DNA of 32,678 bases from a virus. Below the pieces are notes generated by a model that saw only the letters and a list, made by a program, of their open reading frames with translations, was not told where the DNA came from and made no database searches. The stretch covers positions 1 to 32,678 of IMG/VR virus record IMGVR_UViG_3300010354_000324; one strand, written 5' to 3'. Both the position numbers and the translations under genes were made by a program. Positions 4,615 through 27,700 of the stretch are shown here, one piece after another; within the stretch, counting starts at the first letter, position 1, and every line of letters starts with the position of its first letter.

Positions 4615-5911
4615 TACATATTTAAATCCTGCATCAATTAGTCCAGTTATACTTAAAACTGCAGAAGGTAAAACTTTAGACATAACCTCTGTTGTAAAAA
4701 AAATAGAAGTATATGAAAGTATATTTTCTAATTTTTTAACAGCAACTCTTTCAATACTTGATACCCCCGAAACCAGATTGATACAACGTGGGCTAAAAAC
4801 TGCTTTGGATGAAATTTTTTTTTCATTTGCTGGAAAAAGAATAGATGGTAGTTCTGAAAAAACTATTAATATAAATTTAATGGTTTACAAAACACAAACC
4901 GAAAACGCAGATACAAATCAAACAGGACAAACAATAGTAATTCATTTAGCTCCACGTCATTTTTTTAAAAATATGACATTGGATGTATCTAGACACTATT
5001 CCGGAAAAATTACTGATAATGTTAAAAAATTGGCCACAGATTTACAGATAACGATAGATGATATTGAGGCATCTAGCGATGAAATGATTGGTAATTACAA
5101 TTATAAAAGCCCATTAGAACTCATAAATAAATTTGCAACAATTTGCAGACCGGATAGAAATAAAAACGATGTAAATTATTTATTTTATCAAAAAATAGAT
5201 TCTTTTCACTTTAGATCTGTTGGTTCTTTGTTAGAAAAAAAACCAACAGTGGGCACAAATTCATCTAATGGATTCACTGTAGAAATGCCATTTAAGTTGC
5301 CTCTAAAAAAATTAAAAAATAATGTTTTAAGTTATGATATTTCTAGACAGTCACCAATAGAAAATGCTAAAAAAGGAATGTATACTAGTTCAGTATTAAC
5401 TTTTGACATGACTTTAAAAAGATACGTTGAAACAACATATTCATTAAAAAATGAATTTTCTAAACAAACACACCTAACAACGAATCCAATAATAGATCCC
5501 AACAAGTGTCAAAATTTTTCAGAATTATTACAAAATTCGTTTCTAACAAGATATACCCAAAAAGGTAGATTCACAATGTTATGTGAAGACCCACCAGAAT
5601 CTCAGGACAAAGTTGGTGGCCCAGATGATTGGTTATTAAAAAGAATATCTCTTATACAACAATTAAATCAGTTAAATCTGGTTTTTAGTATACCCGGAAC
5701 CTCTGAAAATATATCAGCCGGAGATGTGTTTTATTTTGGTAGACCAATACAACAACAACTTTCAAATGATAAGCCAGAAAAAGACATATTACACAATGGA
5801 AAATTTTTAGCAACAGAAGTAAAACATACATTATCATATAACCTTAATACAGTAATAGCAGAATATAAAACTACAATAAAAGGCACTAAAGATTCTATAG
5901 GAGAAGAGTAA
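4607..5911 (+). CDS. gp27: Baseplate central hub protein, gp27-like
   Basis: A 434-aa protein; T4 gp27 is 391 aa. The start SNTYLNPASISPVILKTAEG, then DITSVVKKIEVYESIFSNFLTATLSILDT is the first tube-like beta domain of hub proteins. A second one, with ETININLMVYK and IVIHLAPRHFFKNM, is followed by KSPLELINKFATICRP. Near the C-terminus are a segment GRFTMLCEDPPES and a final beta domain ending TVIAEYKTTIKG. Gp27 forms the trimeric ring that adapts the six-fold tube to the three-fold spike gp5. The next two genes are the two parts of the spike, which supports the call. It starts within the last codons of gp53 (AGAGAATGTC) and ends as TAATG with the next gene. Related hub proteins of cyanophages have a similar size. 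Confidence 0.75.
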   Translation: MSNTYLNPASISPVILKTAEGKTLDITSVVKKIEVYESIFSNFLTATLSILDTPETRLIQRGLKTALDEIFFSFAGKRIDGSSEKTININLMVYKTQTENADTNQTGQTIVIHLAPRHFFKNMTLDVSRHYSGKITDNVKKLATDLQITIDDIEASSDEMIGNYNYKSPLELINKFATICRPDRNKNDVNYLFYQKIDSFHFRSVGSLLEKKPTVGTNSSNGFTVEMPFKLPLKKLKNNVLSYDISRQSPIENAKKGMYTSSVLTFDMTLKRYVETTYSLKNEFSKQTHLTTNPIIDPNKCQNFSELLQNSFLTRYTQKGRFTMLCEDPPESQDKVGGPDDWLLKRISLIQQLNQLNLVFSIPGTSENISAGDVFYFGRPIQQQLSNDKPEKDILHNGKFLATEVKHTLSYNLNTVIAEYKTTIKGTKDSIGEE

Positions 5912-6774
5912 TGGGTGAAAGATCTACGATGGGAGAATTTTATTGGTTTTTTGGTGTAATAGAAGACAGAAGAGATTTTGACCTTCAATTAGGAAGAGTT
6001 CGTGTAAGAATATTAAATGCACATAGTGCTTACACAAACGATATAAAACGAGAGGAATTACCTTGGGCACAAATTATAATGCCAGTAACAAGTGCATCTG
6101 TATCTGGTATTGGCATGTCTCCAACTGGAATAGTAGATGGTGCATATGTTTTTGGTTTTTTTAGAGATGGTCATTTATGTCAACTTCCTGTTATTTTAGG
6201 TACTTGGCACGGAATAGTAGAGGATCTAAAACCACAAGATATAGGCTCAGATGTAAAACAAAATGATAATCCTAATTTTGGAAAAGTTATACAAACTAAT
6301 GCAGGTGATGGTTTTAAGGATCAAAGAACAGAAGAGGAATTAAAATTATATCCTAAAACTGTAAAAACTTTAAAATTTCCAGATGGTAAAAAAGTTGAAG
6401 GAAATGATCACGGCGTTCAACTAGAAGACGAATACCAAAAGAAAAATCCTTTAGATCAATTTAAGGAAAAAACCGATGTTAGTGCTGTTGCAATTAATGA
6501 TGAAGAAGGGTTAAAAAAAACAATATATAATTATAAGAAATTAAGAAGACCCGATGGATTAATTGATAATGGATTTATCCACATGGATATGGTGCAAGAC
6601 ACTTTTAAATGTGGTATTACAAATGAATCAAAAATAAGTGTAGTTCCTAATCCAATAGATTCTACTGCTAAAACTTCTCTGTCTATCGAATGGAAACCTT
6701 ACAGCGAATCTCCACAAGCATTAGATGATGGTGGAAACATAATTTATAACAAGAAAAATAGAGTAAAGATATAA
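5911..6774 (+). CDS. gp5: Spike protein gp5, N-terminal OB-fold part (no lysozyme domain seen)
   Basis: A 287-aa protein. Residues about 8-110 are the gp5 OB-fold: EFYWFFGVIEDRRDFDLQLG, GRVRVRIL, then LPWAQIIMPVTSASVSGIG, GMSPTGIVDGAYVFGFFRDG, and LPVILGTWHGI. In T4 gp5 (575 aa) the OB-fold is followed in the same chain by a lysozyme domain and a beta-helix. Here the chain continues instead with about 175 hydrophilic residues (LKFPDGKKVEG, KTIYNYKKLRRPDGLIDNG) that show no lysozyme Glu/Asp pattern I can recognise, and then stops. The beta-helix is encoded by the next gene. AGGAGA at 5899-5904 supports the first ATG (5911) over the second one, six codons on. The product should sit on the gp27 trimer at the tail tip. 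Confidence 0.82.
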   Translation: MGERSTMGEFYWFFGVIEDRRDFDLQLGRVRVRILNAHSAYTNDIKREELPWAQIIMPVTSASVSGIGMSPTGIVDGAYVFGFFRDGHLCQLPVILGTWHGIVEDLKPQDIGSDVKQNDNPNFGKVIQTNAGDGFKDQRTEEELKLYPKTVKTLKFPDGKKVEGNDHGVQLEDEYQKKNPLDQFKEKTDVSAVAINDEEGLKKTIYNYKKLRRPDGLIDNGFIHMDMVQDTFKCGITNESKISVVPNPIDSTAKTSLSIEWKPYSESPQALDDGGNIIYNKKNRVKI

Positions 6775-9661: not shown

Positions 9662-11487
9662 GTAAAAATATTCAAAAAATAGATTTTAATTCTATAAAAC
9701 AAAATTTATTAGCATTTTTTAAATCTCAAGATAGATTTACTGGCTATAATTTTGAAGGATCTGGTTTAAATATTTTGTTAGACGTTTTAGCATATAATAC
9801 TTATTATCAGATGTTTTATAACAATATGACTTTTAATGAAATGTTTTTAGACACAGCAACTAAAAGATCATCCATAGTTTCTTTGGCCAAAATGTTGGGT
9901 TATACGCCAGGATCTGCTAAAGCTTCAATTTGTAAAATAAATGTAATTACTACTACAACACCAACATCAACACTAATACCAAAACACACCGTCTTTAGAG
10001 CTGCACATGAAAGTGAAGTTTTTGAGTTTGTAACATTACATGATTATTATTTAAAACCTGAAACATTTAATTCTAATGGAACAATAGCAACATTAGAAAC
10101 AGGTGCAATTGAAATAAAAGAAGGAAAAATTAAAACTTTAACATTTATTCATGATGAGGGTATGCCTTACAGAAAATACATATTACCCTTTGATAATATA
10201 GATCTAAGTACAATTGAAGTGAATGTTCAAGAATCTCAAACAGACTCTGATGGTGCAACTGACGTGTGGTCCGAAGGTAAAGAAATAACAAAAATAACTG
10301 GAACTTCTAATGTATATTTTATAGAAGAGACGCCATATGGCCAATATTGTTTGTATTTTGGTGATAATGTCATAGGTAAAAAGTTAAAAGATAGCAATCA
10401 AATTACAGTTAAATTTTTAGTCACAAATGGTGCATCTGCAAACGGTATAGGAGATAATGATAACCAAAATACATTTACAGTTCCCTCTTTAAATTATACC
10501 GTAGATGTTTTAGTGCCCGCGACTGGGGGGGATTCCAAAGAAACAAAAGAATCAATAAAATTAAAAGCACCAAAATCATTTACCGCACAAGAACGAGCAG
10601 TCACATTAGATGATTACAAAAATATAGTACTTAAAGATTTTCCAAATATAAAATCAATTTCTTGTTGGGGCGGAGAGGACAATGACCCACCTCAATACGG
10701 AAAAGTATTTCTCTCAGTAAAACCACAAAATGGAACAACTCTGACAAATGAAGAAAAACTCAGTATATCTAATTCCCTAAAACAAGGAAAAAATATAGTC
10801 GGAATAGAGCCAGTTGTTATTGACCCAGAGGTTATCTATATTTTATTAGACGTTTTGATTAAAACAGATCCAGTAAAATTAAAAATATCTGCAACAAATT
10901 TATTAAATAAAATAAACAAACAAATTTTAATCTATATTAAAAACAATATAGAAATTTTTGATGGAGATTTTTTCACTAACGAATTAATAAATCAAATTGA
11001 TTCATTAGACGAATCAATATACTCAATAAATATCGTCACTAGAATGGAAAAACGATTCATACCCGATTCAACTCAATCTTTAAATTATGAAATAAATTTT
11101 AGAAATTCCTTTAATTATAATGAAAATTGCACAACTCCAGTAATTAACAGCACCTCATTTTATTATTATGACCCAACTTACACAAAAAGCAGGATATGCA
11201 TTCTGGAAGACGATTCGGCTGGAAATGTAAATATAGTATACAATAATGAATCAGATGAAAAGGTAGTACTAAAAAAAATTGGAACTATAGATTATGTTAA
11301 AGGTATAGTATACTTGACCGCATTTCAACCAATAAAACTAATTGACTCTAATCCAATGAGCATATATGCAGCACCAAAAGAGAAAGATATATATGCAGAT
11401 AAAAATAATTTGCTTGCACTAGATAATCTAGATGGCAAATCTATAGCAATAAGAATTGAACCTCTTCCATATAGAGGAAGAACATGA
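9658..11487 (+). CDS. gp6: Baseplate wedge protein gp6 (baseplate-J-like)
   Basis: A 609-aa protein; T4 gp6 is 660 aa. Signatures in order: KIDFNSIKQNLLAFFKSQ and FTGYNFEGSGLNILLDVLAYNTYY near the N-terminus; a helical region with TATKRSSIVSLAKMLGYTP; a beta domain around residue 200-250 including YCLYFGDNVIGKKL; the baseplate-J core SFTAQERAVTLDDYKNIV, IKSISCWGGEDNDPPQYGKV; and a C-terminal region with FFTNELINQIDSL and RIEPLPYRGRT. Gp6 dimers interlock to form the inner ring of the baseplate. It is coupled by ATGA overlaps on both sides (gp25 and gp7). Slightly shorter than T4 gp6 but complete; I see no missing core segment. Confidence 0.92.
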   Translation: MSKNIQKIDFNSIKQNLLAFFKSQDRFTGYNFEGSGLNILLDVLAYNTYYQMFYNNMTFNEMFLDTATKRSSIVSLAKMLGYTPGSAKASICKINVITTTTPTSTLIPKHTVFRAAHESEVFEFVTLHDYYLKPETFNSNGTIATLETGAIEIKEGKIKTLTFIHDEGMPYRKYILPFDNIDLSTIEVNVQESQTDSDGATDVWSEGKEITKITGTSNVYFIEETPYGQYCLYFGDNVIGKKLKDSNQITVKFLVTNGASANGIGDNDNQNTFTVPSLNYTVDVLVPATGGDSKETKESIKLKAPKSFTAQERAVTLDDYKNIVLKDFPNIKSISCWGGEDNDPPQYGKVFLSVKPQNGTTLTNEEKLSISNSLKQGKNIVGIEPVVIDPEVIYILLDVLIKTDPVKLKISATNLLNKINKQILIYIKNNIEIFDGDFFTNELINQIDSLDESIYSINIVTRMEKRFIPDSTQSLNYEINFRNSFNYNENCTTPVINSTSFYYYDPTYTKSRICILEDDSAGNVNIVYNNESDEKVVLKKIGTIDYVKGIVYLTAFQPIKLIDSNPMSIYAAPKEKDIYADKNNLLALDNLDGKSIAIRIEPLPYRGRT

Positions 11488-14400
11488 ATAATGTAATACA
11501 AATACTTACACCAAATATAAATGAAATAAATTACGGTAAAACTTTACAGTTATCATATGTAGTAACTGATTTAGATGTCAATTTTAAATCAGTTGTTTTT
11601 TTATTAAACGATGAGATTGTAAAAACAGAAAATCTTACAAAATCTATTTTTAATATAACACCAATTAATGGTACTAATTTTATAACAGCATATTGTGTAA
11701 ATAAAAACGGTAAAAAAATAGTAGATACAGAAATACAAGTTTTATTTAATTGTATAACAGAGAATATAACAAAAGATACCACGGTATATGATTTAATCCA
11801 ATATCAATTACCCGAATATATTAGAACCGATTATCCCAAATTTGTTGATTTTATTAGTGCTTATTATGAATTTTTAGAAAAATCAAATGACCCCAATAAA
11901 GTAATATATAATTTAGAAAATTATAGAAATATAGACGATATACCTGATTTTGTTTTAGATAAAATAAAACAAGAGGTAATGAAAGATTTTAACGTAGAGT
12001 TAACAATTGATCGTGAAACAGGTAATCCTATAAACTCAAGAAATGTAGTTAAAAATATAAAAGAATTTTATGACTCAAAGGGTACGGAAAATTCTATAAG
12101 ATTCTTATTTAGAATTTTATATGATAAAGAAATAGATATATACTATCCTAAAACGGATATATTTAAACCATCTTCAAATGTTTATTCTAGAAAAAATATT
12201 TTAAATTGTTATTTGCAAGAATCAACCGATATAGATGCAATAAAAAATGGTATCATATATCAAGAAAATAGCGATTCAGAATATACGGTGTCCGCTAGAG
12301 TTTCAGATATAACAAAAACACTATTTCAGGGTAACTATTATGGCGAAATAGTTCTTAAAGAATTATCTGGTTCTTTTGATTCAACTAAACAAACTAAAGT
12401 TAAAACTATAATAGACGGTGCAGAAGAAATTTTAATATTAAATGTAATTTACTCTGATGCTGCAACTGGAGTATATGGCTCTACTCGCCTCTCTGAATGG
12501 TTAAGAGATAGTAGATCTGGTAAAGATAATATAGATGTTTTATTGGCGGGTGATAGTAATACTGGTCATGGTGTATATGGTTGGAATGGTGGATTGATGT
12601 CTGGTATGATTGAAAACGGAATAAAAATGTATGGAACTCCAATATTTGGTACATACCAAACAGGTGGATTAGTTCCTGGCGGTTATAAGTGTTTTGTGTA
12701 CTTACATTTTGATCAATATAATCAAGCATATTATAATAGTGATAATAAAGTTTTACCTGGTTCTTTGTATGGTAGATCAGAGTTAACAAAACATTTTTCA
12801 ACTGGAGTTGGTGTAACGATTCCTAATGGTATTGGTACGTTTGATCCACAAACAACTGATACTTATATTGGTTATAGTAAAGGGTTAAAACCAAACACAT
12901 ATTCTTTAGATTATCTTTGGTGTGATAAAGAAATGAATGGTTTTAATTTTGGACTCTCTCTTAGAAGTATTCCCAATTTTGATGTTGGAGGCAGTTTATA
13001 TAATATAGGTTATGTAGTACCCGAACCAAGAAATTGCCCTCTATTATTAGAAAAAGTTTTAAGATATAGAATAATAGGTGGTAAATTTAATGCAACAAAT
13101 ACTGATATCATCCCAGATTTTAAATTAAATTTAAATGGTAAAAATAGTGCGGGTAGTAATCGGTTAGATGGTGGGCAAGTAAAAAGTTTATTTAGTTCTA
13201 GTAGACAATTTAGTGGCGATCCTGCGCCACCCCCACAAAGTATACCAATATATAATGATTATTGGATACCACATGAATTTGAAATAACAAATAATACAAA
13301 TCATTATGTTGGAGGTTATCCACCAGCGTCTCGTGATGGTGTTGATGCGTATTATTTTACTGGAAATTTCGTATATGGCAGTGACAGCAACGGAACCCCT
13401 TTACAAGGAAGTACTTATAATTCAAGAATGCGTAAGAACTTTTCGGCTGCTTTACAAAGCATCTATTCTCCTATACAAGGTGTTTCTGTTTCAAATGTCG
13501 AGTATTATCCCGGCGGAACCATGATTCAAATTGGTTATGATATTATAAATACACCACATGAAACATGGGCACTGATAATACAAGAACATGTTGAAAGACA
13601 AAAACAAGCTGGCGGATCTGGTAGAATTTGTTTTTGGCTACAGGGTGGGTTAAATGACGCAAATGCTTGGAGAAACAATCCCTCCGCGTATCCAGATAAT
13701 AATCCAAAACAATATAAACAACAAGTATTAAAAATAATACAAAAAATAAAAAATGTTTGGGCAAAAATTGGTTATGATAAAAATAATTTATGTTTTGCAA
13801 TTATGTGTTCACATGAACCAAGCACTGATTTAAATTTAGAAGAATATAGGGATACACTTAAAGAAATAGATGAACCGGATGTTACAATAATAGACATACC
13901 AGAAATTATTAATAAAACAGAATACTCTCAATATTATAAAGATAATGGATCACACTTTGTTCCAATAGGATACAACACAATAGCCAAAAAAATATTTGAA
14001 AAACTTTTAAATTACACTTCTTCCTCTACAGATGAAAATTTAACTGAGACAAGTTTTGTTTCTAGCAATAAAGTTATTCAAGATAGTAATTATTACCAAG
14101 ATTTTTCATATGACATTTTATCAGACATTAATTCAAATGAACATTTGCCTATAGTCAAGAAAATTGTTCACCCTGCCGGATTTAAAGTGTTTGGTTCATT
14201 TGAAGGTAAAACCAATTTAGATCTACAAATCACAACAACTATAGAACAATTAGAAGAAACAAAACAACTCTCTGCTGTAATTGGAAATTATGTTCCATAT
14301 GTCGTAAGTACAAAAATAGATTTATATGAAGTTCCAATTATTACTGGGTATGATGAAGCAGCAAACCCAATAATAGATTATATTTCGCCCTATGATAATG

Positions 14401-14738
14401 GATATAGGTGGGGACCAAATGGTGTTACAAAACCGACTAGCATTTATGATTTAACAATTATTCATATCATGGAAACAAATGAAGCAGATGTGATTGCCGA
14501 AGTTGCATTATCTGGGACAAAAACGGAAATAGAAAGCAATTTAGTTGTTATAAATACTGACGCTAATGTGTTTTTACCAGTAGCCAAACTAGAAGATTCT
14601 GGAAAATTCTGGGTTGTTGGAAAACACTGGAATCAGGTTGTTCAAGAAAATGTTAATACAGATGATCAACTTAAAACATTTTTAGAATTTACTATAAGTG
14701 ATATAACTAATATACCGGTTAATGATAATACAGGATAA
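11484..14738 (+). CDS. gp7: Baseplate wedge protein gp7 with inserted SGNH/GDSL-hydrolase-like domain
   Basis: A 1084-aa protein. Residues 1-95 look like an Ig-type beta domain. Residues about 98-320 carry the gp7-type segment TVYDLIQYQLPEYIRTDYPK, FVDFISAYYEFLEKS, then NVVKNIKEFYDSKGTENSIRFLFRIL and a short SGSF beta unit near 294. Residues about 855-1084 resume with KVIQDSNYYQDFSYDI and KKIVHPAGFKVFGSFEGK. Between them, roughly 325-850, lies an insert with SGNH marks: VLLAGDSNTGHG (catalytic Ser358), FWLQGGLNDANAW (Asn724) and DNGSHFVPIGYNTIA (His824, Asp820). The Asp is four rather than three residues before the His, a deviation from the usual DxxH. About 360 residues separate the Ser and Asn blocks, so a further beta-rich domain may be inserted there. 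A carbohydrate esterase role is inferred, not shown. The start overlaps the stop of gp6. Confidence 0.82.
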   Translation: MNNVIQILTPNINEINYGKTLQLSYVVTDLDVNFKSVVFLLNDEIVKTENLTKSIFNITPINGTNFITAYCVNKNGKKIVDTEIQVLFNCITENITKDTTVYDLIQYQLPEYIRTDYPKFVDFISAYYEFLEKSNDPNKVIYNLENYRNIDDIPDFVLDKIKQEVMKDFNVELTIDRETGNPINSRNVVKNIKEFYDSKGTENSIRFLFRILYDKEIDIYYPKTDIFKPSSNVYSRKNILNCYLQESTDIDAIKNGIIYQENSDSEYTVSARVSDITKTLFQGNYYGEIVLKELSGSFDSTKQTKVKTIIDGAEEILILNVIYSDAATGVYGSTRLSEWLRDSRSGKDNIDVLLAGDSNTGHGVYGWNGGLMSGMIENGIKMYGTPIFGTYQTGGLVPGGYKCFVYLHFDQYNQAYYNSDNKVLPGSLYGRSELTKHFSTGVGVTIPNGIGTFDPQTTDTYIGYSKGLKPNTYSLDYLWCDKEMNGFNFGLSLRSIPNFDVGGSLYNIGYVVPEPRNCPLLLEKVLRYRIIGGKFNATNTDIIPDFKLNLNGKNSAGSNRLDGGQVKSLFSSSRQFSGDPAPPPQSIPIYNDYWIPHEFEITNNTNHYVGGYPPASRDGVDAYYFTGNFVYGSDSNGTPLQGSTYNSRMRKNFSAALQSIYSPIQGVSVSNVEYYPGGTMIQIGYDIINTPHETWALIIQEHVERQKQAGGSGRICFWLQGGLNDANAWRNNPSAYPDNNPKQYKQQVLKIIQKIKNVWAKIGYDKNNLCFAIMCSHEPSTDLNLEEYRDTLKEIDEPDVTIIDIPEIINKTEYSQYYKDNGSHFVPIGYNTIAKKIFEKLLNYTSSSTDENLTETSFVSSNKVIQDSNYYQDFSYDILSDINSNEHLPIVKKIVHPAGFKVFGSFEGKTNLDLQITTTIEQLEETKQLSAVIGNYVPYVVSTKIDLYEVPIITGYDEAANPIIDYISPYDNGYRWGPNGVTKPTSIYDLTIIHIMETNEADVIAEVALSGTKTEIESNLVVINTDANVFLPVAKLEDSGKFWVVGKHWNQVVQENVNTDDQLKTFLEFTISDITNIPVNDNTG
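12450..14040 (+). other. SGNH/GDSL-hydrolase-like domain inside gp7
   Basis: Approximate limits of the inserted part of the gp7 gene (residues about 325-850). Block I is GDSN (356-359), block III is GLND (722-725), block V is DNGSH (820-824). The block II glycine is not certain. Edges are judged from where the gp7-like sequence stops and resumes. Confidence 0.72.
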
Positions 14739-16556: not shown

Positions 16557-18611
16557 ATGGCATTTAAACACCAAGACGAATTAAAAAACTCACCATACTT
16601 TGATGATTTTGACGATACAAAGAATTTTTTACAAATTCTTTTTAAACCGGGAGTAGCAGTTCAGGCAAGAGAATTAACACAACTTCAGTCGATACTACAA
16701 AATCAAATATCTAAAATATCAGATCATATTTTTAAAGATGGATCTCAAGTCTTTGGTGCAAAGGTCACATTAACAAATTATTTTTATATTAGAATAAAAA
16801 ATAATTCAATTAAAGATGCAACGAATACTGTTATAAATTCAGATTTTACGGATAAAACTGTTTGTGAAAATTATTTTAAAAATAAACAATTTGCGCCAAC
16901 ATCATTTACTTATAATAGCACTTCATATACACAAAGAACAGGAACTTCTGGTATAGTAAATATTGAAGACGATGTTGATTTTCAGGTTAAAATTATAGAC
17001 GTTTTACCTGAAACCGTTTCTGACAATTTAATTATTGTATTTAAATTTATAAAGGGCAATCTCAATAAATTAAAACAACTAACTGATATAAAATTAATTG
17101 AAATAACTAATTCTAACTGGAATTCAACATCAGTTGATGCGTTAGAAGTTAAAGACAATTCAAATCAAAATCCAATAAATTTTGAAATAGAACCATCTGT
17201 TACACAAGCAAGTGAATTGTTACTGGACAATATGAATACTGTAATGGTTGCATCAGTTTCTCCTGGTATATTTTATAAATTTGGTCGATTTGTAAATACT
17301 GAAGAATCGACGACTGTATTGTATAAAATAAGCACAAGTTCAAATGCTCTACTTGAAATAGAGAGCACAATGAATAATGGCTTAAAAACGCCAATAACAG
17401 GTAAAGAAGAATATGTTGGCAGAAAATTATTTTCATATCCATCAAAGAAAATAGGATTTGATATAACAACAAAAATTGTAGATTTTAGAGAAGATATAAC
17501 TCTTGTTGATAATGCAATAGGATCTTATAACGAAAAGGCCCCAGGTGCAGATAGATTAAAAATAGATTTTACGTTAACAAATAAAGATTTTGATATAGAC
17601 GTATTAGAAAATTATAATGCAGAATCTTTTGTTGAAGTTGCACGCGTGAGTAAGGGTGCACCAGATTTTATCAAAGGTGGAGCAGATTATAGTGAAATAT
17701 TAAAATTATTTGCCCAGAGAACATATGAAGAATCCGGTTCTTATACGGTTCTTCCATTTTTAATTGATTTTAAAGAACATTTAAGAAAAGATTTATATAT
17801 TTTTAGTTCAGCTTCAATTGCTCCTCAAATTGAAGTTGGAGATTTAATAGTACAAAAAACAATAGGAGCAAACGACGTATCTATTCGATTTAGCGGGTCT
17901 ACTGCATCCACACCTATTTTATTATTTCCAACACAAACAAAACCAGCAGGAAATTATAAATATGGCACAGAAATACAAAGTGAACCTATTGGTATTATAG
18001 AGAGAATAGATCGTTTAGGTGGCAAAGTGTACATAAGATCATTAAACGGGTTATCATTTAGTTCTTTTAGTTCTGGTAAAGAATTTTCTGTAAAAACTGT
18101 AGATACTGGTACATTTAGCCAAACAGTAACACTAGATGCCTCAGTTCAATTTATATTAGACGATATAGGTATTTACCCACCATCAAACACAACAGAACCG
18201 GGTGATGAATCTAAATTTGTCATAAAAGTAAATCCAGGTAAAGCGTACATTGAAGGATTTTCTTACGAGAACCTTATACCACAAAATGTAACGTGCGATA
18301 AAGCCAGAGATACATTTTTAAATTCATCTGTTATTAATTCACAAATTAATAATTTAATTTATATGAAACCTGTTGTCGATTCAACATTAAACAACACTCT
18401 TATAGCAGAAGATATATTTGAGGAAAAAATAAAGGTTCACGGAAATGTGGTGGAAATAGAATTTAGAGGAACACCCGAAAGCTCCTTTGCACAAGGCCAA
18501 TTAACACATTGGGCACCATTTAAAGACGGAACTATGGTTAATACACAAACACCATATATTAATATAAATAATAAAGAACATATAGCATTCGTATCAGGAA
18601 CAATCTCATAA
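16557..18611 (+). CDS. Virion structural protein, baseplate periphery (DUF4815-like)
   Basis: A 684-aa protein. The N-terminal block (SPYFDDFDDTKNFLQILFKP, then GVAVQARELTQLQSILQNQISKISDHIFKDGSQVFG) is the highly recognisable start of a family found in T4-like cyanophages and other aquatic myoviruses, which I associate with DUF4815. Later elements: PSKKIGFDITTKIVDF, a DTGTF beta unit near residue 516, and FVIKVNPGKAYIEGFSYENL. In many relatives this domain lies at the N-terminus of one very long protein whose C-terminal part resembles the next gene here. Position after gp8 and before the fibres suggests a role in the outer baseplate, comparable in place to T4 gp9-gp11, but without clear homology to them. 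The binding site is a weak AAAGAG at 16542-16547. Confidence 0.72.
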   Translation: MAFKHQDELKNSPYFDDFDDTKNFLQILFKPGVAVQARELTQLQSILQNQISKISDHIFKDGSQVFGAKVTLTNYFYIRIKNNSIKDATNTVINSDFTDKTVCENYFKNKQFAPTSFTYNSTSYTQRTGTSGIVNIEDDVDFQVKIIDVLPETVSDNLIIVFKFIKGNLNKLKQLTDIKLIEITNSNWNSTSVDALEVKDNSNQNPINFEIEPSVTQASELLLDNMNTVMVASVSPGIFYKFGRFVNTEESTTVLYKISTSSNALLEIESTMNNGLKTPITGKEEYVGRKLFSYPSKKIGFDITTKIVDFREDITLVDNAIGSYNEKAPGADRLKIDFTLTNKDFDIDVLENYNAESFVEVARVSKGAPDFIKGGADYSEILKLFAQRTYEESGSYTVLPFLIDFKEHLRKDLYIFSSASIAPQIEVGDLIVQKTIGANDVSIRFSGSTASTPILLFPTQTKPAGNYKYGTEIQSEPIGIIERIDRLGGKVYIRSLNGLSFSSFSSGKEFSVKTVDTGTFSQTVTLDASVQFILDDIGIYPPSNTTEPGDESKFVIKVNPGKAYIEGFSYENLIPQNVTCDKARDTFLNSSVINSQINNLIYMKPVVDSTLNNTLIAEDIFEEKIKVHGNVVEIEFRGTPESSFAQGQLTHWAPFKDGTMVNTQTPYININNKEHIAFVSGTIS
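18563..18570 (+). promoter_or_regulatory. Possible late promoter box (TATAAATA)
   Basis: Exact TATAAATA at the end of the previous gene, 54 bases before the 18624 ATG. T4 late promoters often lie inside the upstream gene. The box is within an A+T-rich Ile/Asn codon run, so a chance match cannot be excluded. Confidence 0.4.
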
Positions 18612-18623
18612 TAAAGGATCAGT

Positions 18624-21600
18624 ATGGCAAATTTTACTGAATTAACTAAAACAATCGGCTCTCCTGTTGATGATGGTATCGAATATGAATTCAGAAGATT
18701 ATCTCAAACTGTCACGAATGTTATTAAGGCAGTTGTAAGTCAACCTTTTTACACGGATGTTAAAACTGCATACGATCCTTCAAAAACCAACACGTTCTCT
18801 ACATCGTATTTGAGCAACACAAGTCCATCTTTAGTAAAGCAAGCAGACTATACTGGAAAAATATGTGCAACCGGTGAATTAGTTAGAGCCACTTTATCAG
18901 ATTTTACTCAAACATTATTCATTAAAACAACAAGTGGAACCTTTGAAGCTAAAAATGGTCCAATATTTAATAACGGTAGAGGACTTAATGGTGCTGAAAT
19001 TGCGAATGGTTCTCAAAACGTATTCTCTTATGGATCAAGTATTAAAAATGTTAGATTTTTAACTTCTGTTCAAAAAATAACTGCATATTTTAGCACAGAT
19101 GAATGTGAACATTATAATCGCGGAACAACACAATTAGCATGTGATACCGGAAAACAATATCCAGAAAAACATTATTTTGATTATGGAACACCAATTGTAG
19201 GAAATACTGTAAGAATTAGAAATGGTGGAGTTAGCCAAGGTGGAACAAGATATTCCAATCAAAATGAATCAAACGGGTTCGATATTAGACAGATACCAAT
19301 TCAAACATATGGTAAAATATTATCAGTAATTTTGGGCACAAATAGTATAACGTTGATAGTTGAGATGAATCAACTTTTATCAGAAGATGCAATTACAACT
19401 ATTGGTGGATTGGATTATGTTTTAAATCTTTTCTATATTGAAGAAATACAAGACGTTCCTTGTGCTCGTTATAGGGTAGATAGAGTAGAAACTCTTGTAG
19501 ACAATAATATTTTACAAGAAGTAACTTTTTCCGAAACAAATGCCTTTACATATAATCCCACATTCCCAGGCCAACCAGCATATAAAGTAATTCAATATGA
19601 TAATACAAGCAGTGTGATCAGAGAAGGCCAAGAATATCTGGTTCGAACTGAAGCAAATGTGTTAGGTTGGGCGGCAGGAACTAGATCTTTATTCGTACAA
19701 TGTCTTAGTGGTATATTTAAGAAAGAAAATGGCCCAATATATCAATTAGATTCTACAGGAAATCTTTCATCTCTAGGTCTCGGAGGAAACGCATACGATC
19801 TAAATGCCTCAGATTTTAGCAAGAAAAGTGGATTTTTTGTTAACATATCAGAAGCATATAAAGGTGATATGACTGTTGGTGAAAACATAGTACAAAGAAT
19901 TGATACACAAGATGGATGGATAAAAGAACAAAATTATGAAATTGGTTCAACAGTAAGACAATATATTAATGAAAATGAATATATCAGTGGTAAAGTTATT
20001 AAATGGATAACACCAAAAACCGGAACTCAAAGTTTTATTAATCCACCAAAATTAGTAGTTAGAATGGATGATGAAAGTAAACAATTTACATTCACTCCCG
20101 GCTCACAAAAAATAGTTCCAGAAACCATACCCTTTGTTGATACACAAGATTGGTTATATAATTTAGATAAAACATTTATTCAATCTAAGAGTGGAACATT
20201 TAACACCGATCAAATAGTAAACAATAAAACAGAATTTAGTCAAATTTTAGAAACAAAAGGAAATGAAACATATTCAGTTGGAGCAAGAATTGCCCCAACC
20301 AATGCAGAAATAGGTTCTTTAAGTATAAACGCTTTAACTATACCCGCAGGAGGAACTGTTTATTCTAATGCCGGAACATATGGATTATCGGTTGCAAATA
20401 TAAAATCTATTGGCGATTATACTCTAGATGACGTTCTAACATTCATGGATCAATTATCTTTAGAGGGGGCAGTCATATTTGAAGTAGATCCAGTTTCCGT
20501 TAAATATTGCAAAGTAACACTAAAAACAACTACTGACGAATTAAGAGATAATGATGCTTTAATTTTGGGCGGATCGACAACTTCAAATGCTAAGATAGTT
20601 GCTCTTACAGATATTGACTCTGGACAGGTTGATGGTGATGGTAATCCTATATTTGTCACAGAATTAATAATTGAAAGAAAAACTACAGACGTTGTTTTAA
20701 AGAACGCAGATACTATAGTATCTGTTATAAGATCCGGAATACAATATAGTTTAAGAACTGCAGTTGAAGTTGACACAGTAGAACCTTATGCATCAATTCA
20801 CTTAAACGATAGATCAGAAACCGGATTAATATATCCATTACAAAATGCAAAATATTTTGAAAAGGTAAGAGATGCGAATGGAAATAATTTACAAAATATA
20901 AAGGTTACAAAAACTTTAAGTGGAACTTTTAGTGTTGGCACAATAACAATAGACACCACAAAAATTCCAAATGGCACACTAACTTCTGGGTATCTAATCT
21001 ATCAAAACAGTTCAAATAATATAGTAAAAACTTCAGACTCAAGTATTATTGTTCAGGACATCGAAACCAAAGCGTTAGATTTAACAGCACCTGCAGATTT
21101 AGATCCTGAGAATAAAAATTTTATATTTACAGGTGAATTTGAAATAAATATTGCTGCTATAACAAGAACTAAAAATTATGAATCTAACACCGAAACAAGA
21201 GCCCTCAAGTGGCAAGAATATATTACAGTAAACAATCAACAAGTAACAGTTGATGAATTTTATCTATATTTGACAAAATCAGATGTTCAAGAACTGGTTT
21301 CTGTTGCATATGGAGCAACAGATGTTACACAATATTTCTTATTCACTTCTGGAGAAACTGATGAGATATATGGGTTTGGTAAATTATTATTAAATAAAGA
21401 AAAGAGAACAGAATTCTTCTCTGCAATTGGACTAGATGAAACTGTAGCAAAAACTACCCCGTTCGACTTAAGTATATCCTATAATTACTTTGAACACAGT
21501 GGCAGCGGTCCGGTTGTAAGAGAATCCTACACATATGGAACCGGCGTGTTAATGCCTTTAGATGATATTGGTTATTTTCCATCAAAGACTGGAAAAATAT

Positions 21601-24494
21601 TCCATAAAAGCTCTATAATAGATTTTAGGCCAGTTGAAACATTGACAGCTCCCATAAGTAATAACGAAAATCCTTATGATAACACGGCATATTATGATAT
21701 AGTATTTACTTCTATACCCAATTCAAGATTTGTTATTAAAAATGAACATTATTTAAATAGAGTAGATAAATTATATCTTGATAAATCAGGAACATTTACC
21801 CTAGATAAGGGAGTATCTTCCATAGAGGCAGTAGAACCCGCAACTAATAACAAATTAGGAATGTTATTGTATACAGTTCAAGTTCCCGAATACACATTAA
21901 ATGTTAAAGACATTACATTTAGAAAAATAGAAAATAGACGATACACCATGCGTGATATCGGTAAACTCGATAAGAGAATATCAGAAATAGAATATTATAC
22001 TGTACTTTCTTTATTAGAAAAAGAGGCAACTGATCTTGTTGTTAAAGATGCAAACGGATTTACAAGAGAAAAAAATGGAGTTGTTGTTGATTCCTTCGTT
22101 AGCCATGCAGTTGGTGATGTTTATAGTGTACAATATAATGCATGTGTAAATCCACGAGAAGGCTACCTAAGACACCCATTTAAAACAACAAGATTGTCTT
22201 TAGTTCCTGATCCCGGTTCAACAAATAATTTCGTTGAACAAAATTCTGCAATTATAAAATCTGCATTTTCTGGGGCAATACAAGGCACAGGTCTTTACAT
22301 ACTACAACCAGAAAGTATAGAAACATTTATTACACAACCTTTAGCCACACAAACCGTATTAATTACAGCACTAGATAGTTTCCAATACGATGGAGAGGTC
22401 ATATTGAAACCTTCTTCTGATGATTGGGTGGACACTACGGTAAAGCCAGAGGTTAAAATTGATCTAACTGGTGGATTGAATGAGGCAATAGATAATATTA
22501 ATCAAGCACTATTTAATAATAATATTGCTCCATTCGGTACTTTCTTTTCAGATTGGCAAACAACAGATACAACAAGAACTACTCCGGGTCGCGTATCCCA
22601 AGGAAGAAGTATGTTTCAAGTTTGGGATGTAACTAGAGAACAAGAAAGAACAAGAACACAAGGACAATTAACATCTTCAGAGCGTAATGTAAGTTTGGGT
22701 GAAAGAGTAACCGATGTGTCTCTCGTTCATTTCATGAGACCCCAGACAATAAAAATATCGGCTACACAGTTAAGACCAAACACTAGAGTTTATATTTTCT
22801 TTGATAATATTGATATTAAAGAATATTGTAGATTTAATAGAAACGGCACTTATGTAAATTTTGTGGGAAATTTCCCTAAAACAGACAAAAATGGAAACAT
22901 AGAAATATTATTTGATTTACCCTCTAATAAATTTAGAACAGGAGAAAAATTATTTGTAATTACAGATAATCAAGTAAACGATAAAACAGATATAAATACC
23001 ACAATGTATGCCACTGCCGCATTTGCTGCTAGTGGTTTAAGTGTCACAAAAGAAACAACATCAACAACTGTAAGAGATTTTAGATTTAATAATACTCAAA
23101 CATTACAAGAAAGAACTGTAAGATCTAGAGAATTACAATTCTTATACAGTTTTGACCCTCTGGCACAAACATTCTTTGTAAATGAAGAATTATATCCAGA
23201 TGGGGTTTATGTTGAATCTTTAGATTTGTGTTTTAGCACTAAAGATCCAGTTATTCCTGTCAAAGTTGAACTCAGACCGACAGTAAACGGCTATCCAGAT
23301 ATTAATAGAATTTATCCAAATGGAGTTGCTGTAGTAAATGCAGCAAATGTAAAAGCATTAAATGACGCTGATGCTTTACCCGATATAAATGATTCCAACA
23401 AATTTACTAAATTTACATTTGATGCTCCAGTATATCTGTCTCCTGGCGAACACTCTTTTGTTGTTCGTTCTACAAGCAGAGAATATGCATTATATGCTGC
23501 AAAACTAGGAGATAGAGATGTTAGAGACGAAAACTTAAGAGTTCTAGAGAACCCATATTTAGGAGTTTTCTTTAGATCCGCAAATGCTTCTACTTGGGAA
23601 CCAGACGGTACAACTGATCTGATGTTTAAGATGAATAAATTAATATTTGATTCAACTGCATCACCAACAAACCCCGCATCTAAGACCTTTACTTTAGCAG
23701 CAGATGCCAGCATTGCAGCAGATTTTAATAATACGTTTGAAAATGGTGATGGTGATTTATTAACATTTAATACATATAATTTGGCACTTAAAGCAGTCGA
23801 TTATCCTAATTGTAGAGTAAATTATTCAGTTGATTACTATGAAGGATCTACAAATATAGATACTACAAATGTTCCTTTGAACACAGATATTGTTTTAGGT
23901 AATGCAGGTGCTATTAGAAGAGCCTCACCACAACAACAATTTAAAGTTGTAGTTAATACAACTCTAACGAATCCACATATTTCTCCAATATTTGATTTAG
24001 AAAAATCTGGAGTTCTATTTATTCGTAATATGATAGACGTTTCTGAAATAGGTGCAGATGGAAGAGCGTCTGCTACTATAATAGAAAATGAAACAAAACC
24101 ATTTGCTGCGATAAAACAATCAACAGCAGAAGGAAAGAATCCTGCAACAATGCGTTATATGACAAGAAAAATAACATTGGCTCCAGGATTTGATGCATCA
24201 AACATTAAAGTTCTTTTAACAGTATACAAACCACAAGGAACAGATCTTGCCGTTTTTGTTAAAACACAAGGTGCATCATCATCAGGACAATTTGAAAATC
24301 AACCATATGTCCAACTGACTAGAAGCGGAAATGATTTTGTGTCACTAGATGATCAAGATTATAGAGAAATTGAATATACGTTCCCAGAAGACATTGATGC
24401 ATTTGATAAATTTAGTATTAAGATATGCCTATTTTCTAATAATTCATGCAATGTACCTAAAGTCAAAGACATGAGAGGAATCGCAATACAATGA
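18624..24494 (+). CDS. Very large virion structural protein (1956 aa), baseplate/fibre-attachment type
   Basis: A 1956-aa protein. The N-terminal region (FTELTKTIGSPVDDGIEYEF) is followed by a series of small beta units marked by SGTF or SGIF at about residues 104, 362, 523, 766 and 1055. Around 1120-1160 is RRYTMRDIGKLDKRISEIEYYT, a helix pair typical of long structural proteins of T4-like cyanophages. From about 1370 on comes a set I recognise from the same proteins: MRPQTIKISATQLRPNTRVY, FRTGEKLFVITDNQVN, AASGL, FDPLAQTFFVNEELYPDGVY, then KVELRPTVNGYPD. The last part (residues about 1690-1956) contains beta domains with EIEYTFPEDIDAFDKFSIKI. Function is inferred from position and family: outer baseplate or fibre anchor. 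AAAGGA at 18613-18618 is the binding site. Confidence 0.75.
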   Translation: MANFTELTKTIGSPVDDGIEYEFRRLSQTVTNVIKAVVSQPFYTDVKTAYDPSKTNTFSTSYLSNTSPSLVKQADYTGKICATGELVRATLSDFTQTLFIKTTSGTFEAKNGPIFNNGRGLNGAEIANGSQNVFSYGSSIKNVRFLTSVQKITAYFSTDECEHYNRGTTQLACDTGKQYPEKHYFDYGTPIVGNTVRIRNGGVSQGGTRYSNQNESNGFDIRQIPIQTYGKILSVILGTNSITLIVEMNQLLSEDAITTIGGLDYVLNLFYIEEIQDVPCARYRVDRVETLVDNNILQEVTFSETNAFTYNPTFPGQPAYKVIQYDNTSSVIREGQEYLVRTEANVLGWAAGTRSLFVQCLSGIFKKENGPIYQLDSTGNLSSLGLGGNAYDLNASDFSKKSGFFVNISEAYKGDMTVGENIVQRIDTQDGWIKEQNYEIGSTVRQYINENEYISGKVIKWITPKTGTQSFINPPKLVVRMDDESKQFTFTPGSQKIVPETIPFVDTQDWLYNLDKTFIQSKSGTFNTDQIVNNKTEFSQILETKGNETYSVGARIAPTNAEIGSLSINALTIPAGGTVYSNAGTYGLSVANIKSIGDYTLDDVLTFMDQLSLEGAVIFEVDPVSVKYCKVTLKTTTDELRDNDALILGGSTTSNAKIVALTDIDSGQVDGDGNPIFVTELIIERKTTDVVLKNADTIVSVIRSGIQYSLRTAVEVDTVEPYASIHLNDRSETGLIYPLQNAKYFEKVRDANGNNLQNIKVTKTLSGTFSVGTITIDTTKIPNGTLTSGYLIYQNSSNNIVKTSDSSIIVQDIETKALDLTAPADLDPENKNFIFTGEFEINIAAITRTKNYESNTETRALKWQEYITVNNQQVTVDEFYLYLTKSDVQELVSVAYGATDVTQYFLFTSGETDEIYGFGKLLLNKEKRTEFFSAIGLDETVAKTTPFDLSISYNYFEHSGSGPVVRESYTYGTGVLMPLDDIGYFPSKTGKIFHKSSIIDFRPVETLTAPISNNENPYDNTAYYDIVFTSIPNSRFVIKNEHYLNRVDKLYLDKSGTFTLDKGVSSIEAVEPATNNKLGMLLYTVQVPEYTLNVKDITFRKIENRRYTMRDIGKLDKRISEIEYYTVLSLLEKEATDLVVKDANGFTREKNGVVVDSFVSHAVGDVYSVQYNACVNPREGYLRHPFKTTRLSLVPDPGSTNNFVEQNSAIIKSAFSGAIQGTGLYILQPESIETFITQPLATQTVLITALDSFQYDGEVILKPSSDDWVDTTVKPEVKIDLTGGLNEAIDNINQALFNNNIAPFGTFFSDWQTTDTTRTTPGRVSQGRSMFQVWDVTREQERTRTQGQLTSSERNVSLGERVTDVSLVHFMRPQTIKISATQLRPNTRVYIFFDNIDIKEYCRFNRNGTYVNFVGNFPKTDKNGNIEILFDLPSNKFRTGEKLFVITDNQVNDKTDINTTMYATAAFAASGLSVTKETTSTTVRDFRFNNTQTLQERTVRSRELQFLYSFDPLAQTFFVNEELYPDGVYVESLDLCFSTKDPVIPVKVELRPTVNGYPDINRIYPNGVAVVNAANVKALNDADALPDINDSNKFTKFTFDAPVYLSPGEHSFVVRSTSREYALYAAKLGDRDVRDENLRVLENPYLGVFFRSANASTWEPDGTTDLMFKMNKLIFDSTASPTNPASKTFTLAADASIAADFNNTFENGDGDLLTFNTYNLALKAVDYPNCRVNYSVDYYEGSTNIDTTNVPLNTDIVLGNAGAIRRASPQQQFKVVVNTTLTNPHISPIFDLEKSGVLFIRNMIDVSEIGADGRASATIIENETKPFAAIKQSTAEGKNPATMRYMTRKITLAPGFDASNIKVLLTVYKPQGTDLAVFVKTQGASSSGQFENQPYVQLTRSGNDFVSLDDQDYREIEYTFPEDIDAFDKFSIKICLFSNNSCNVPKVKDMRGIAIQ

Positions 24495-24712
24495 GCGACT
24501 TCATACCAATAAAAGACCATCCTTTTTTTAAAAAAGATCCACATTCTAAAGCAATTTTAAATTTTAACAGTGAAAAAAAATCAACTTTAGAAAATATTAA
24601 AAATTTATCTAATAAATACATACAAATAGAAAAAAAAATAGAAAATATTGATAACAATATAAATGATCTAAAACAATTATTAGAAAAAATAATTAAAGAA
24701 AAGAATAACTAA
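24491..24712 (+). CDS. Small coiled-coil protein between structural and fibre genes; unknown
   Basis: A 73-aa protein. After MSDFIPIKDHPFFKKDPHS the rest is a single charged amphipathic helix (residues about 28-72; KKIENIDNNINDLKQLLEKI) with regular hydrophobic spacing, so a trimeric or dimeric coiled coil is likely. It overlaps its neighbours on both sides by four and one bases (ATGA, then TAATG), which argues it is translated and needed with the fibre gene that follows. It might be a fibre or assembly cofactor. I do not recognise a family. Base use is as A-rich as its surroundings. Confidence 0.7.
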   Translation: MSDFIPIKDHPFFKKDPHSKAILNFNSEKKSTLENIKNLSNKYIQIEKKIENIDNNINDLKQLLEKIIKEKNN

Positions 24713-27700
24713 TGGCCATAGAAGAAATAACAGCATTAAATTTAACAGATACGTTCTCAACATGGTTTGTAGCCACTAATGAATTGATTAGTGGGTACAA
24801 TAGTATAACTATACATTCTGCCATAGAGGGTAATGGAATTAAAATTGATGCTGGAACGAATGGCGAAACAACCTTTTCAATAAATTTAAAAACAAATTCC
24901 GGATTAACATTTTATTCAGATAAAACAGTCGGAATAGATATATTTTCTCTCCCAGAGGACACTGTTGTAAATAACAACGATTATTTGTTGATAGATGTTA
25001 ATGGTGACGATAATACAAATAATAATAATGAACTAAGAAAAGTAAAAGCAAGTAATATTTTACCATTAAACATAAATGGAAATCATATTTTTTCAAACGA
25101 TTCTTCTGATTCATATGTATCCTTTGAAACTGATAGTTTATTCTTAAATTCACAAAATATATTAGTTGAAAATTCTTATATAACATTAAATTACAGTTTA
25201 GACACTAATGGTGAATTTTTACCAAAAAACCAAGTTGTTTCTGGATTAAAAGTTGCAACTAAAGAACAAATAGCAAAATTTGAATATAATGGTGCAAAAA
25301 ATGCATGGCTCTCAACTGCAGATTTAGGCTTTACAACCGGATCTAAATTTGTAAACGTTTCAGATAGTACTGAAACATCTACTGAAGCAACATTTACCTT
25401 TGGATTGGTTGATGAGCAAACATTTGTTTCTCTAAAAATACAAAAAGGTTCTATAACAGATGATCAATATTGGGAAATAACCACCGACCCAACACAAGAC
25501 ATATTACAAATGTCATTCAAAGATGACAGCAGTAATGGAGAAAACCAAGATGTTATACGCTTATCAAAATTATCATCTGGTGAGGGTGGTGGTGGATTAT
25601 TATATGTAAATGATAAAATTTATATTGCAAACATAACAGGATCATCACAATTTAAAACCGAGCCAACCTCCACGTTTACAAATTATGTAATTCCAATAGC
25701 CAATACAAGTGGTATATTAGATTATAGATGGTTAAATAGATATGTTGCCACAGAAATAAGCGGAACCGTTTTAGAAGGAGATGTGGTAAGATTTACTACA
25801 GATACAGATTCTGTTAGAATAACTCGTGCAGATGCAACCACAGAAGAAAATAGCAATTTTATTGGTATAGTTGAAAGAATTTATAATGGAAAATATTATG
25901 TTGTTTTATCTGGACAATTTAATGCAACCGCAAGCATAGATTTATCTTTAACTTTTGGTGAGACATATTATCTTTCAGAAACAGCAGGCGGTGTTACAAC
26001 TACCAAGCCAAGTGGAATAGCAAAACCCGTATTAATTGCAACAGGAACTAAATCTGGAATTCTGTTAACACAAGGAAACGGACAACTACCAACATTCAAA
26101 GACATCTATATTGTAGATGATGCATCCACACTTAGCCCAACAATAGTAAATGATACTTTAAATTTTAAGGGTGGAACTGGAATAGGTATAAGAACAAACA
26201 GCAATAATGAAATAGAAATTTATGCATCTGGTGGTGCTGGAACACAAAACACATATGCCACAGTTAATAGTATTGCAGCAATTTCGACTGCAGACAATAT
26301 ACAGTTTACTGGCTTAAATGGTATCCAAATACAAGTAGCAAAAACACATACTGATACCGAAGTTGAAATTGAAGCACCCGCTGGATTTGGTATAATAGAC
26401 GTTGTTGCCGATTCTTCAGACGATGTTCAATTTACTCTGACTTCTTCTGTTTCAAATGACACATTAGAATTAATTGCTGGAACCGGTATAACACTAACGA
26501 ACCACGCCTACAACGGAATTACTATAACTGCAACTGGCGTCTCTGTTCCTGCCGCAGGCAGTGTTGGAAACACAGAATTGGCTAATATGGGTGCATTTTC
26601 GATTAAAGCCTCTGATGATGCTGGAACACCAATAAATGTTTCTCTAAATAATTTTCCAAATTATTATTTAAGCACTGATGGTAGTTTTTATGTGCAAAAC
26701 AGCGTAACTAGTGTATATGAATTATCATACGGCGAAGAACCAAATGGCGGAGGCGTTCCTGGAGCTATAGCAGGATTTGTTGTTGGTAGAATCGTAGACA
26801 CCAATGGCGATAAGAGTTCTGTAACTGCATTAAATAGATCAGATTTACGCAAATTAATAGGATCTTCGCCTACAGGCTATCTTGAAGAAAATCAAAATGC
26901 ATATAGTATTGTTGATGTTATAAATGGAGCAACAACAACAACCTTGGCTGCTGCTTCTCAAACAGATATTTTAACACTACAATCTGGATCAGGTATAACA
27001 TTAACGGCATCAGAAAATACAGATGGCTCATCAGTGGTGGTTATATCGGCAGATAGTACATCATACTTTGCAAGTTTAGGTTCTGGTTTTAACAGCATAT
27101 TAACATCACATGGAACATTTAATGCAGGGGATACTGGTGCTGTTATCGAAATTCCAGACACAAATACAATTAAAGCAGAAGTCGGTTCAACTGATAGTAA
27201 TTTTGATTTATTATTGTCTGTTAAAGATGCCTCAATAACAAATACACATTTAGAATTGATGCCTGCTAATAGCGTAAAAGTTGGCAAAAATACTACAGAT
27301 GAAGGAAATGTTGATTTAGTTTTACCCGCTAATTCGGTTTTAGGTAGATTATCTAATAATGAAATAGCAGCACTAACTCAAACAGATTTAAATACTCTTC
27401 TAGAAGATTACTTCTTTGATTCAATCACAATTCAAAAAATAAATGGTTCAAGTGTAACAGTAAATCCAGATGAACGATCAGGAAATGTTATAATCAAAGA
27501 AGGAAGTTACATTACAATAAACAATACTGCTGCGGGTGAAATTACAATTTCGTCCTCCGCTCCAGCAGCATATGGTATTAAAACTATACAAACAGCAGAT
27601 GATTCGGTTGCCAGAGCAGCTGCCGCATTAATTTTAGAAAGCACAACACAAAATTATGAAACACTCGCAGGCAATATCGATCTAAAACCTGCATCCGCTT

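Follow-up and report, generated by a model that had tools for sequence, protein, structure and literature searches.

Does a baseplate wedge protein of a T4-like phage itself carry an enzyme that modifies the host surface? The question is raised by a 1084-residue open frame (11484..14738, + strand, as are all its parts given below) in the window, i.e. the whole 32,678-nucleotide stretch of IMG/VR record IMGVR_UViG_3300010354_000324 that was analysed. An earlier note on this DNA had read the frame as gp7-type sequence interrupted by an SGNH-like domain. The gene order gp25-gp6-gp7-gp8, which is that of T4-like phages, is present (PHROG_261, gp25-like; PHROG_219, gp6; the 1084-residue ORF; PHROG_438); the ORF overlaps the gp6 stop, and gp8 comes next. 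In Pfam and PHROG scans the flanks of the ORF match the baseplate wedge families PF23786 (E=1.4e-12), PHROG_26741 and PHROG_17744. A profile of five relatives including the window protein (A1) matches T4 gp7 residues 645-841 at E=1.4e-7, and a profile of 39 gp7 proteins matches the C-side HPAG region to T4 gp7 866-916, a match that is weak alone, but in order. By these profile matches, found on both flanks, the ORF is a true T4 gp7 homologue. In pelagimyophages T4 gp7 is reportedly missing, with VrlC in its place (PMC7029224); the profile match places the window protein as a relative of gp7 itself.

The ORF begins with an N-terminal extension (residues 1-97, 11484..11774) that is Ig-like by eye and, by sequence comparison, is found also in the gp7 of locus L012. 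The gp7 core on the N-side of the insertion (residues 98-320, 11775..12443) is equivalent by profile match to T4 gp7 645-841. The core on the C-side, identified by sequence and profile comparison, occupies residues about 859-1084 (14058..14735, SSNKVIQDSNYYQDFSY...HPAGFKVFG), and gp7 sequence does resume after the insert at KVIQDSNYYQDFSY (about 863-876), as had been proposed. The intervening segment had been put at about 525 residues; the interruption stands, and its extent is now refined by homologues to residues about 325-844 (12456..14015), which align end to end with free-standing viral proteins at about 20-28% identity.

These free-standing homologues were recovered from 2.9 million viral contigs with degenerate DNA patterns for D-V-L-x-x-GDSN covering both Ser codon types, and further ones were gained by alignment-based searches. 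Several GDSN-pattern matches (L090, L096-L100 and L102) were chance matches and were set aside. Among the free-standing genes for which the neighbourhood was inspected, one (L115) sits amid portal, major-head and tail-fibre-like genes, and another (L093) adjoins tailspike and tail-fibre genes. A Planctomycetia MAG protein (L108:7389-9797) carries the module flanked on both sides by RCC1-like repeats, recognised by eye, and is viewed as the cellular equivalent of the module carried by the phage; since the module lies within this RCC1-like protein and within gp7, its insertion has taken place in at least two distinct scaffolds. No Pfam or PHROG model covers the module family above threshold, and an HMM search of the insert against both, one of the checks proposed earlier, gave a weak Lipase_GDSL_2 match (E=0.0088) to a C-terminal sub-segment and otherwise nothing but PHROG matches to the gp7 part at the end of the insert. 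There was no real match to the insert by phmmer or to the module in a profile search of PDB sequences. Likewise, neither the insert nor four homologues had a tblastn match in 50,697 isolate phage records, nor did the insert have one in plasmids, and single-sequence searches of viral contigs with the insert returned nothing beyond the near-identical contig described below.

The motifs GDSN (356-359), GGLND (721-725) and DNGSH (820-824) lie within 11484-14738 in that order, at the coordinates first given for them. In a 22-member alignment (A7), counting the members that cover each site, block I of the module (GDSN, 12549..12560) keeps the nucleophile Ser358 in 21 of 21, and block II Gly677 (13512..13514), a residue additional to those pointed out before, is kept in 22 of 22. 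Conservation is also complete (22/22 each) for Gly722 and the oxyanion hole Asn724 of block III (G722-L-N724, 13647..13655) and for the catalytic His824 of block V (13953..13955). Ser, Gly, Asn and His are thus invariant and in SGNH order. Most homologues, L110-L128 among them, were found via the peptides Q[QP]NRY[IQ]W and GPFACLW, not via catalytic motifs, so that conservation of GDSN, Gly, GxN and His among them is unselected. The Asp of the DxxH catalytic motif is not conserved: the -3 position is Asn in the window (Asn821, with Asp820 at -4) and Gly, Glu, Asp, Pro, Ser or others in the relatives.

Structure prediction and fold search, proposed in the earlier note as a check, gave a confident SGNH core in the window with SGNH enzymes as its matches. 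The AF2 model of the window module, built from 22 sequences, has a pTM of 0.73, with the core mostly at pLDDT 80-97 and the nested region mostly below 50; its elements follow the order beta1-Ser, helix, nested region, beta2-Gly, helices, beta3-Asn, helix, beta4, helix, beta5, His, helix. In this predicted topology Ser, Gly and Asn come directly after beta-1, beta-2 and beta-3, and His before the last helix, which are the canonical SGNH places; this bears indirectly on the refuting condition of the earlier note, that Ser358, Asn724 and His824 would lie apart. The flavodoxin-like alpha/beta/alpha fold of the AF2 models is matched by Foldseek to SGNH enzymes with probability 1.0. The best match of the window module is Ape1 (4k3u, E=7e-6), followed by TesA and other SGNH enzymes, with a lipase and an acyltransferase also among the weaker matches; a search of predicted viral structures gave two uncharacterised uncultured-phage proteins at E=2e-24 and 7e-19. 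A homologue from a better populated branch (L111) gives a confident AF2 model of the whole module (pLDDT 86.3, pTM 0.91), and its best Foldseek matches, over the whole module, are Ape1 of Campylobacter (4e-12) and of Neisseria (7e-12); further matches of about 130 columns are to CBM6-type beta-sandwiches. An SGNH-like domain in gp7, as first suspected, is therefore upheld by the four residues invariant in the homologues together with the AF2 and Foldseek results.

The distance of about 360 residues between the Ser and Asn blocks is explained by a predicted CBM-like beta-sandwich nested after the Ser block and ahead of the Gly/Asn blocks. A second, nested domain had been guessed at from this spacing, and it is now backed by independent homologues and predicted structures at residues about 385-662 (12636..13469), limits that are set by analogy with Ape1 104-221. 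A CBM-like domain after the Ser block is an Ape1/CE3-like feature; it is seen in the L111 fold topology, with CBM6-like and Ape1 matches, and is of low confidence in the window model. The nested domain is the most divergent part of the module (16% identity to the window vs 24-36% for the core), a fast divergence that is as expected for a specificity domain, to judge from the alignment.

The closest known layout is that of the peptidoglycan O-acetylesterase Ape1 (PDB 4k3u, Neisseria; 8gkd, Campylobacter), where a CBM-like sandwich likewise separates the Ser block of an SGNH core from its Gly/Asn blocks: Ser80, CBM35-like 104-221, Gly236, Asn268, His369 (PMC6174289). However, there is no detectable sequence similarity to Ape1, with about 10% identity in the structure alignment; the nested domain has about 280 residues in the gp7 module and 118 in Ape1; and the gp7 module is borne on a virion protein. 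Because the DxxH Asp, present in Ape1, is unconserved in the gp7 module family, the module is not assigned to the Ape1 family. The CE20 esterases (Fl8CE20_II) likewise have an SGNH domain split by a fast-evolving beta-sandwich, an ancillary domain that helps form the active site, and are active without a direct Asp on His (PMC12313940). CE20, however, has extra N- and C-terminal sandwiches, and CE20 structures are absent among the fold matches listed for the module.

Phage tails are well known to carry SGNH enzymes. E. coli phage G7C gp63.1 and Klebsiella prophage fibres are SGNH receptor-binding proteins active on acetyl esters (PMC13123978); these too are virion-borne esterases at the host surface, but on separate spikes or fibres rather than the wedge, and no sequence match to them was found. 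The Tal protein (gp59) of Staphylococcus phage 80alpha has an SGNH-type domain that is also on a baseplate protein, but C-terminal on the gp27-like hub of a siphophage and not a wedge insertion (PMC7048315). Enzymes of this kind on tails, a hub-borne SGNH domain in the baseplate and nested sandwiches within SGNH cores thus all have precedents. An SGNH domain in the gp7 wedge protein was found neither in the open-access literature searched, which is weak evidence, nor in the other gp7 proteins examined, and gp7 as an SGNH carrier appears to be new.

The place of the insertion in gp7 is itself variable. Among the 39 gp7 proteins in which both flanking motifs could be placed, the gap from the end of the N-side profile match to the D-x-x-YYQ-x-FSY motif is 6-390 residues elsewhere and 547 in the window, and the site is nearly empty (6 residues) in Nitratidesulfovibrio phage SRB7757 and Ochrobactrum phage OC. 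T4 gp7 has the same core, but just about 25-35 residues at the equivalent site and no SGNH module; the L012 gp7 has the N-terminal extension in common with the window, yet a different beta-rich insert at the site. Because of this range of lengths and the differing inserts, the gp7 site is, by sequence comparison, a length-variable insertion port of which the SGNH module is one occupant. The module profile found no SGNH module in other gp7 loci, in a scan that took in the 80 best T4-like gp7 proteins, or in the cyanophage gp7 stretches read; Pfam gave no GDSL domain in the 39 gp7 proteins, and among 85 gp7 proteins just one other has even a loosely G[DQ]S..G.ND-like pair with suitable spacing. 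Giant cyanophage gp7 proteins, with about 6400 residues in S-RIM8, have the same gp7 core with extra domains such as YHYH and, in one of those scanned, LamG, and, in the stretches read, differ in that the module was not found.

Could the arrangement be an artefact, either an assembly chimera or unrelated sequence in which the motifs occur by chance? The gp7 module is known from one virus, on two nearly identical contigs, and the second IMG/VR contig (identical over 13.7 kb around the gene, 99.98% over 14.9 kb) may be from the same virus population. However, the frame is open, the insert is in frame at a recurrent insertion site, and homologues and a predicted fold would be hard to reconcile with chance. 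The module GC3 of 0.16 is within the flank range of 0.12-0.17; on this uniform GC3 and the second contig an assembly chimera was rejected as unlikely, and an artefact of either kind is hardly credible.

The insert is thus probably a catalytically intact SGNH Ser-His esterase whose conserved blocks I and II are separated by a carbohydrate-binding-like beta-sandwich; it would act from a variable gp7 loop to remove O-acyl groups from a surface glycan. By analogy, the most plausible function is removal of acetyl groups from a glycan on the host surface by the baseplate, because the Ape1 glycan O-acetylesterases are the closest solved structures and esterase activity is proven for SGNH receptor-binding proteins of phages; the location of free-standing relatives in virion-structure or tailspike clusters also supports the esterase reading. 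The putatively exposed gp7 loop would display the esterase on the baseplate wedges. T4 wedges contain six gp7 monomers (PMC3004832), and one module per gp7 would give several copies per virion, or six esterases if the arrangement is as in T4. The nested domain would bind the surface polysaccharide and select the glycan, the Ser358-His824 pair would strip O-acyl (probably acetyl) groups with Gly677 and Asn724 forming the oxyanion hole, and acyl removal may help the baseplate to reach or engage its receptor.

An unlikely reading is that the module, with its SGNH fold retained, works chiefly as an adhesin by which the baseplate binds glycan, and catalyses little or nothing. The CBM-like nested domain, the missing DxxH Asp and other gp7 inserts that are non-catalytic by annotation, e.g. 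LamG, would all suit an adhesin; but loss of catalysis would not need Ser, Gly, Asn and His all to be kept in a family with 20-28% identity to the window, and CE20 esterases are active although they too are without this Asp (PMC12313940). That the module is instead a peptidoglycan O-acetylesterase as Ape1, aiding the tail lysozyme by clearing lysozyme-blocking acetyls from the cell wall, is improbable. Ape1 enzymes are the top structural matches, but an identity of about 10% is too low for transfer of substrate, the Ape1 DxxH is lost, and gp7 is peripheral in the baseplate; because gp7 is expected to remain outside the cell, an outer glycan is the likelier substrate. SGNH proteins range over lipases, thioesterases and acyltransferases, and the weaker fold matches of the module take in TesA, a lipase and an acyltransferase. 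This would allow transfer or removal of a non-acetyl acyl group, or a non-glycan ester target such as a lipid; such a role is very improbable, as both the CBM-like nested domain and a topology like that of Ape1 favour a glycan.

If the wedge is itself a glycan esterase, as favoured here, surface-modifying chemistry would be built into the contractile apparatus instead of residing on fibres that can detach, and one could test directly whether a baseplate alters its own receptors; in T4 the gp5 tail lysozyme is the sole known virion enzyme (PMC3004832). So far uncharacterised viral structural proteins would also gain a predicted activity through the module family. A broader proposal, which is unlikely, is that T4-like baseplates in general use the gp7 loop that follows T4 position about 841 as a plug-in port, into which host-interaction cassettes, whole enzymes among them, can be swapped. 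The portable SGNH-CBM cassette, elsewhere a free-standing virion protein and also found inside the planctomycete RCC1-repeat protein, would then make the wedge an enzyme, and glycan engagement would help to trigger the baseplate switch.

Among the 39 gp7 proteins scanned, LamG occurs in 3 and beta-propeller-like SGL/lactonase matches in 2, which suggests, at the level of sequence matches, other cassettes in gp7. The cyanophage gp7 proteins at L129:10003-24486 and L131:10327-24816 have strong YHYH matches (E about 1e-30), one of them with LamG, and further very long gp7 proteins are encoded at L046:5980-11562, L015:5923-11793 and L018:5899-11787.

Elsewhere in the window, a 1467-residue ORF of the tail cluster (24712-29115) has no Pfam, NCBIfam or PHROG match and is possibly a host-contact fibre, judged by its position. 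The gp5-like hub is split over adjacent ORFs: 5911-6774 carries the gp5 OB domain (PF06714), and 6781-8607 matches their shared PHROG (430) in its C-terminal part. Pfam reported no lysozyme domain in either. Similarly, ORF 16557-18611 and its neighbour 18624-24494 match consecutive stretches of a single family (PHROG_358, DUF4815); by these matches, what other phages encode in one gene seems to be split in the window.
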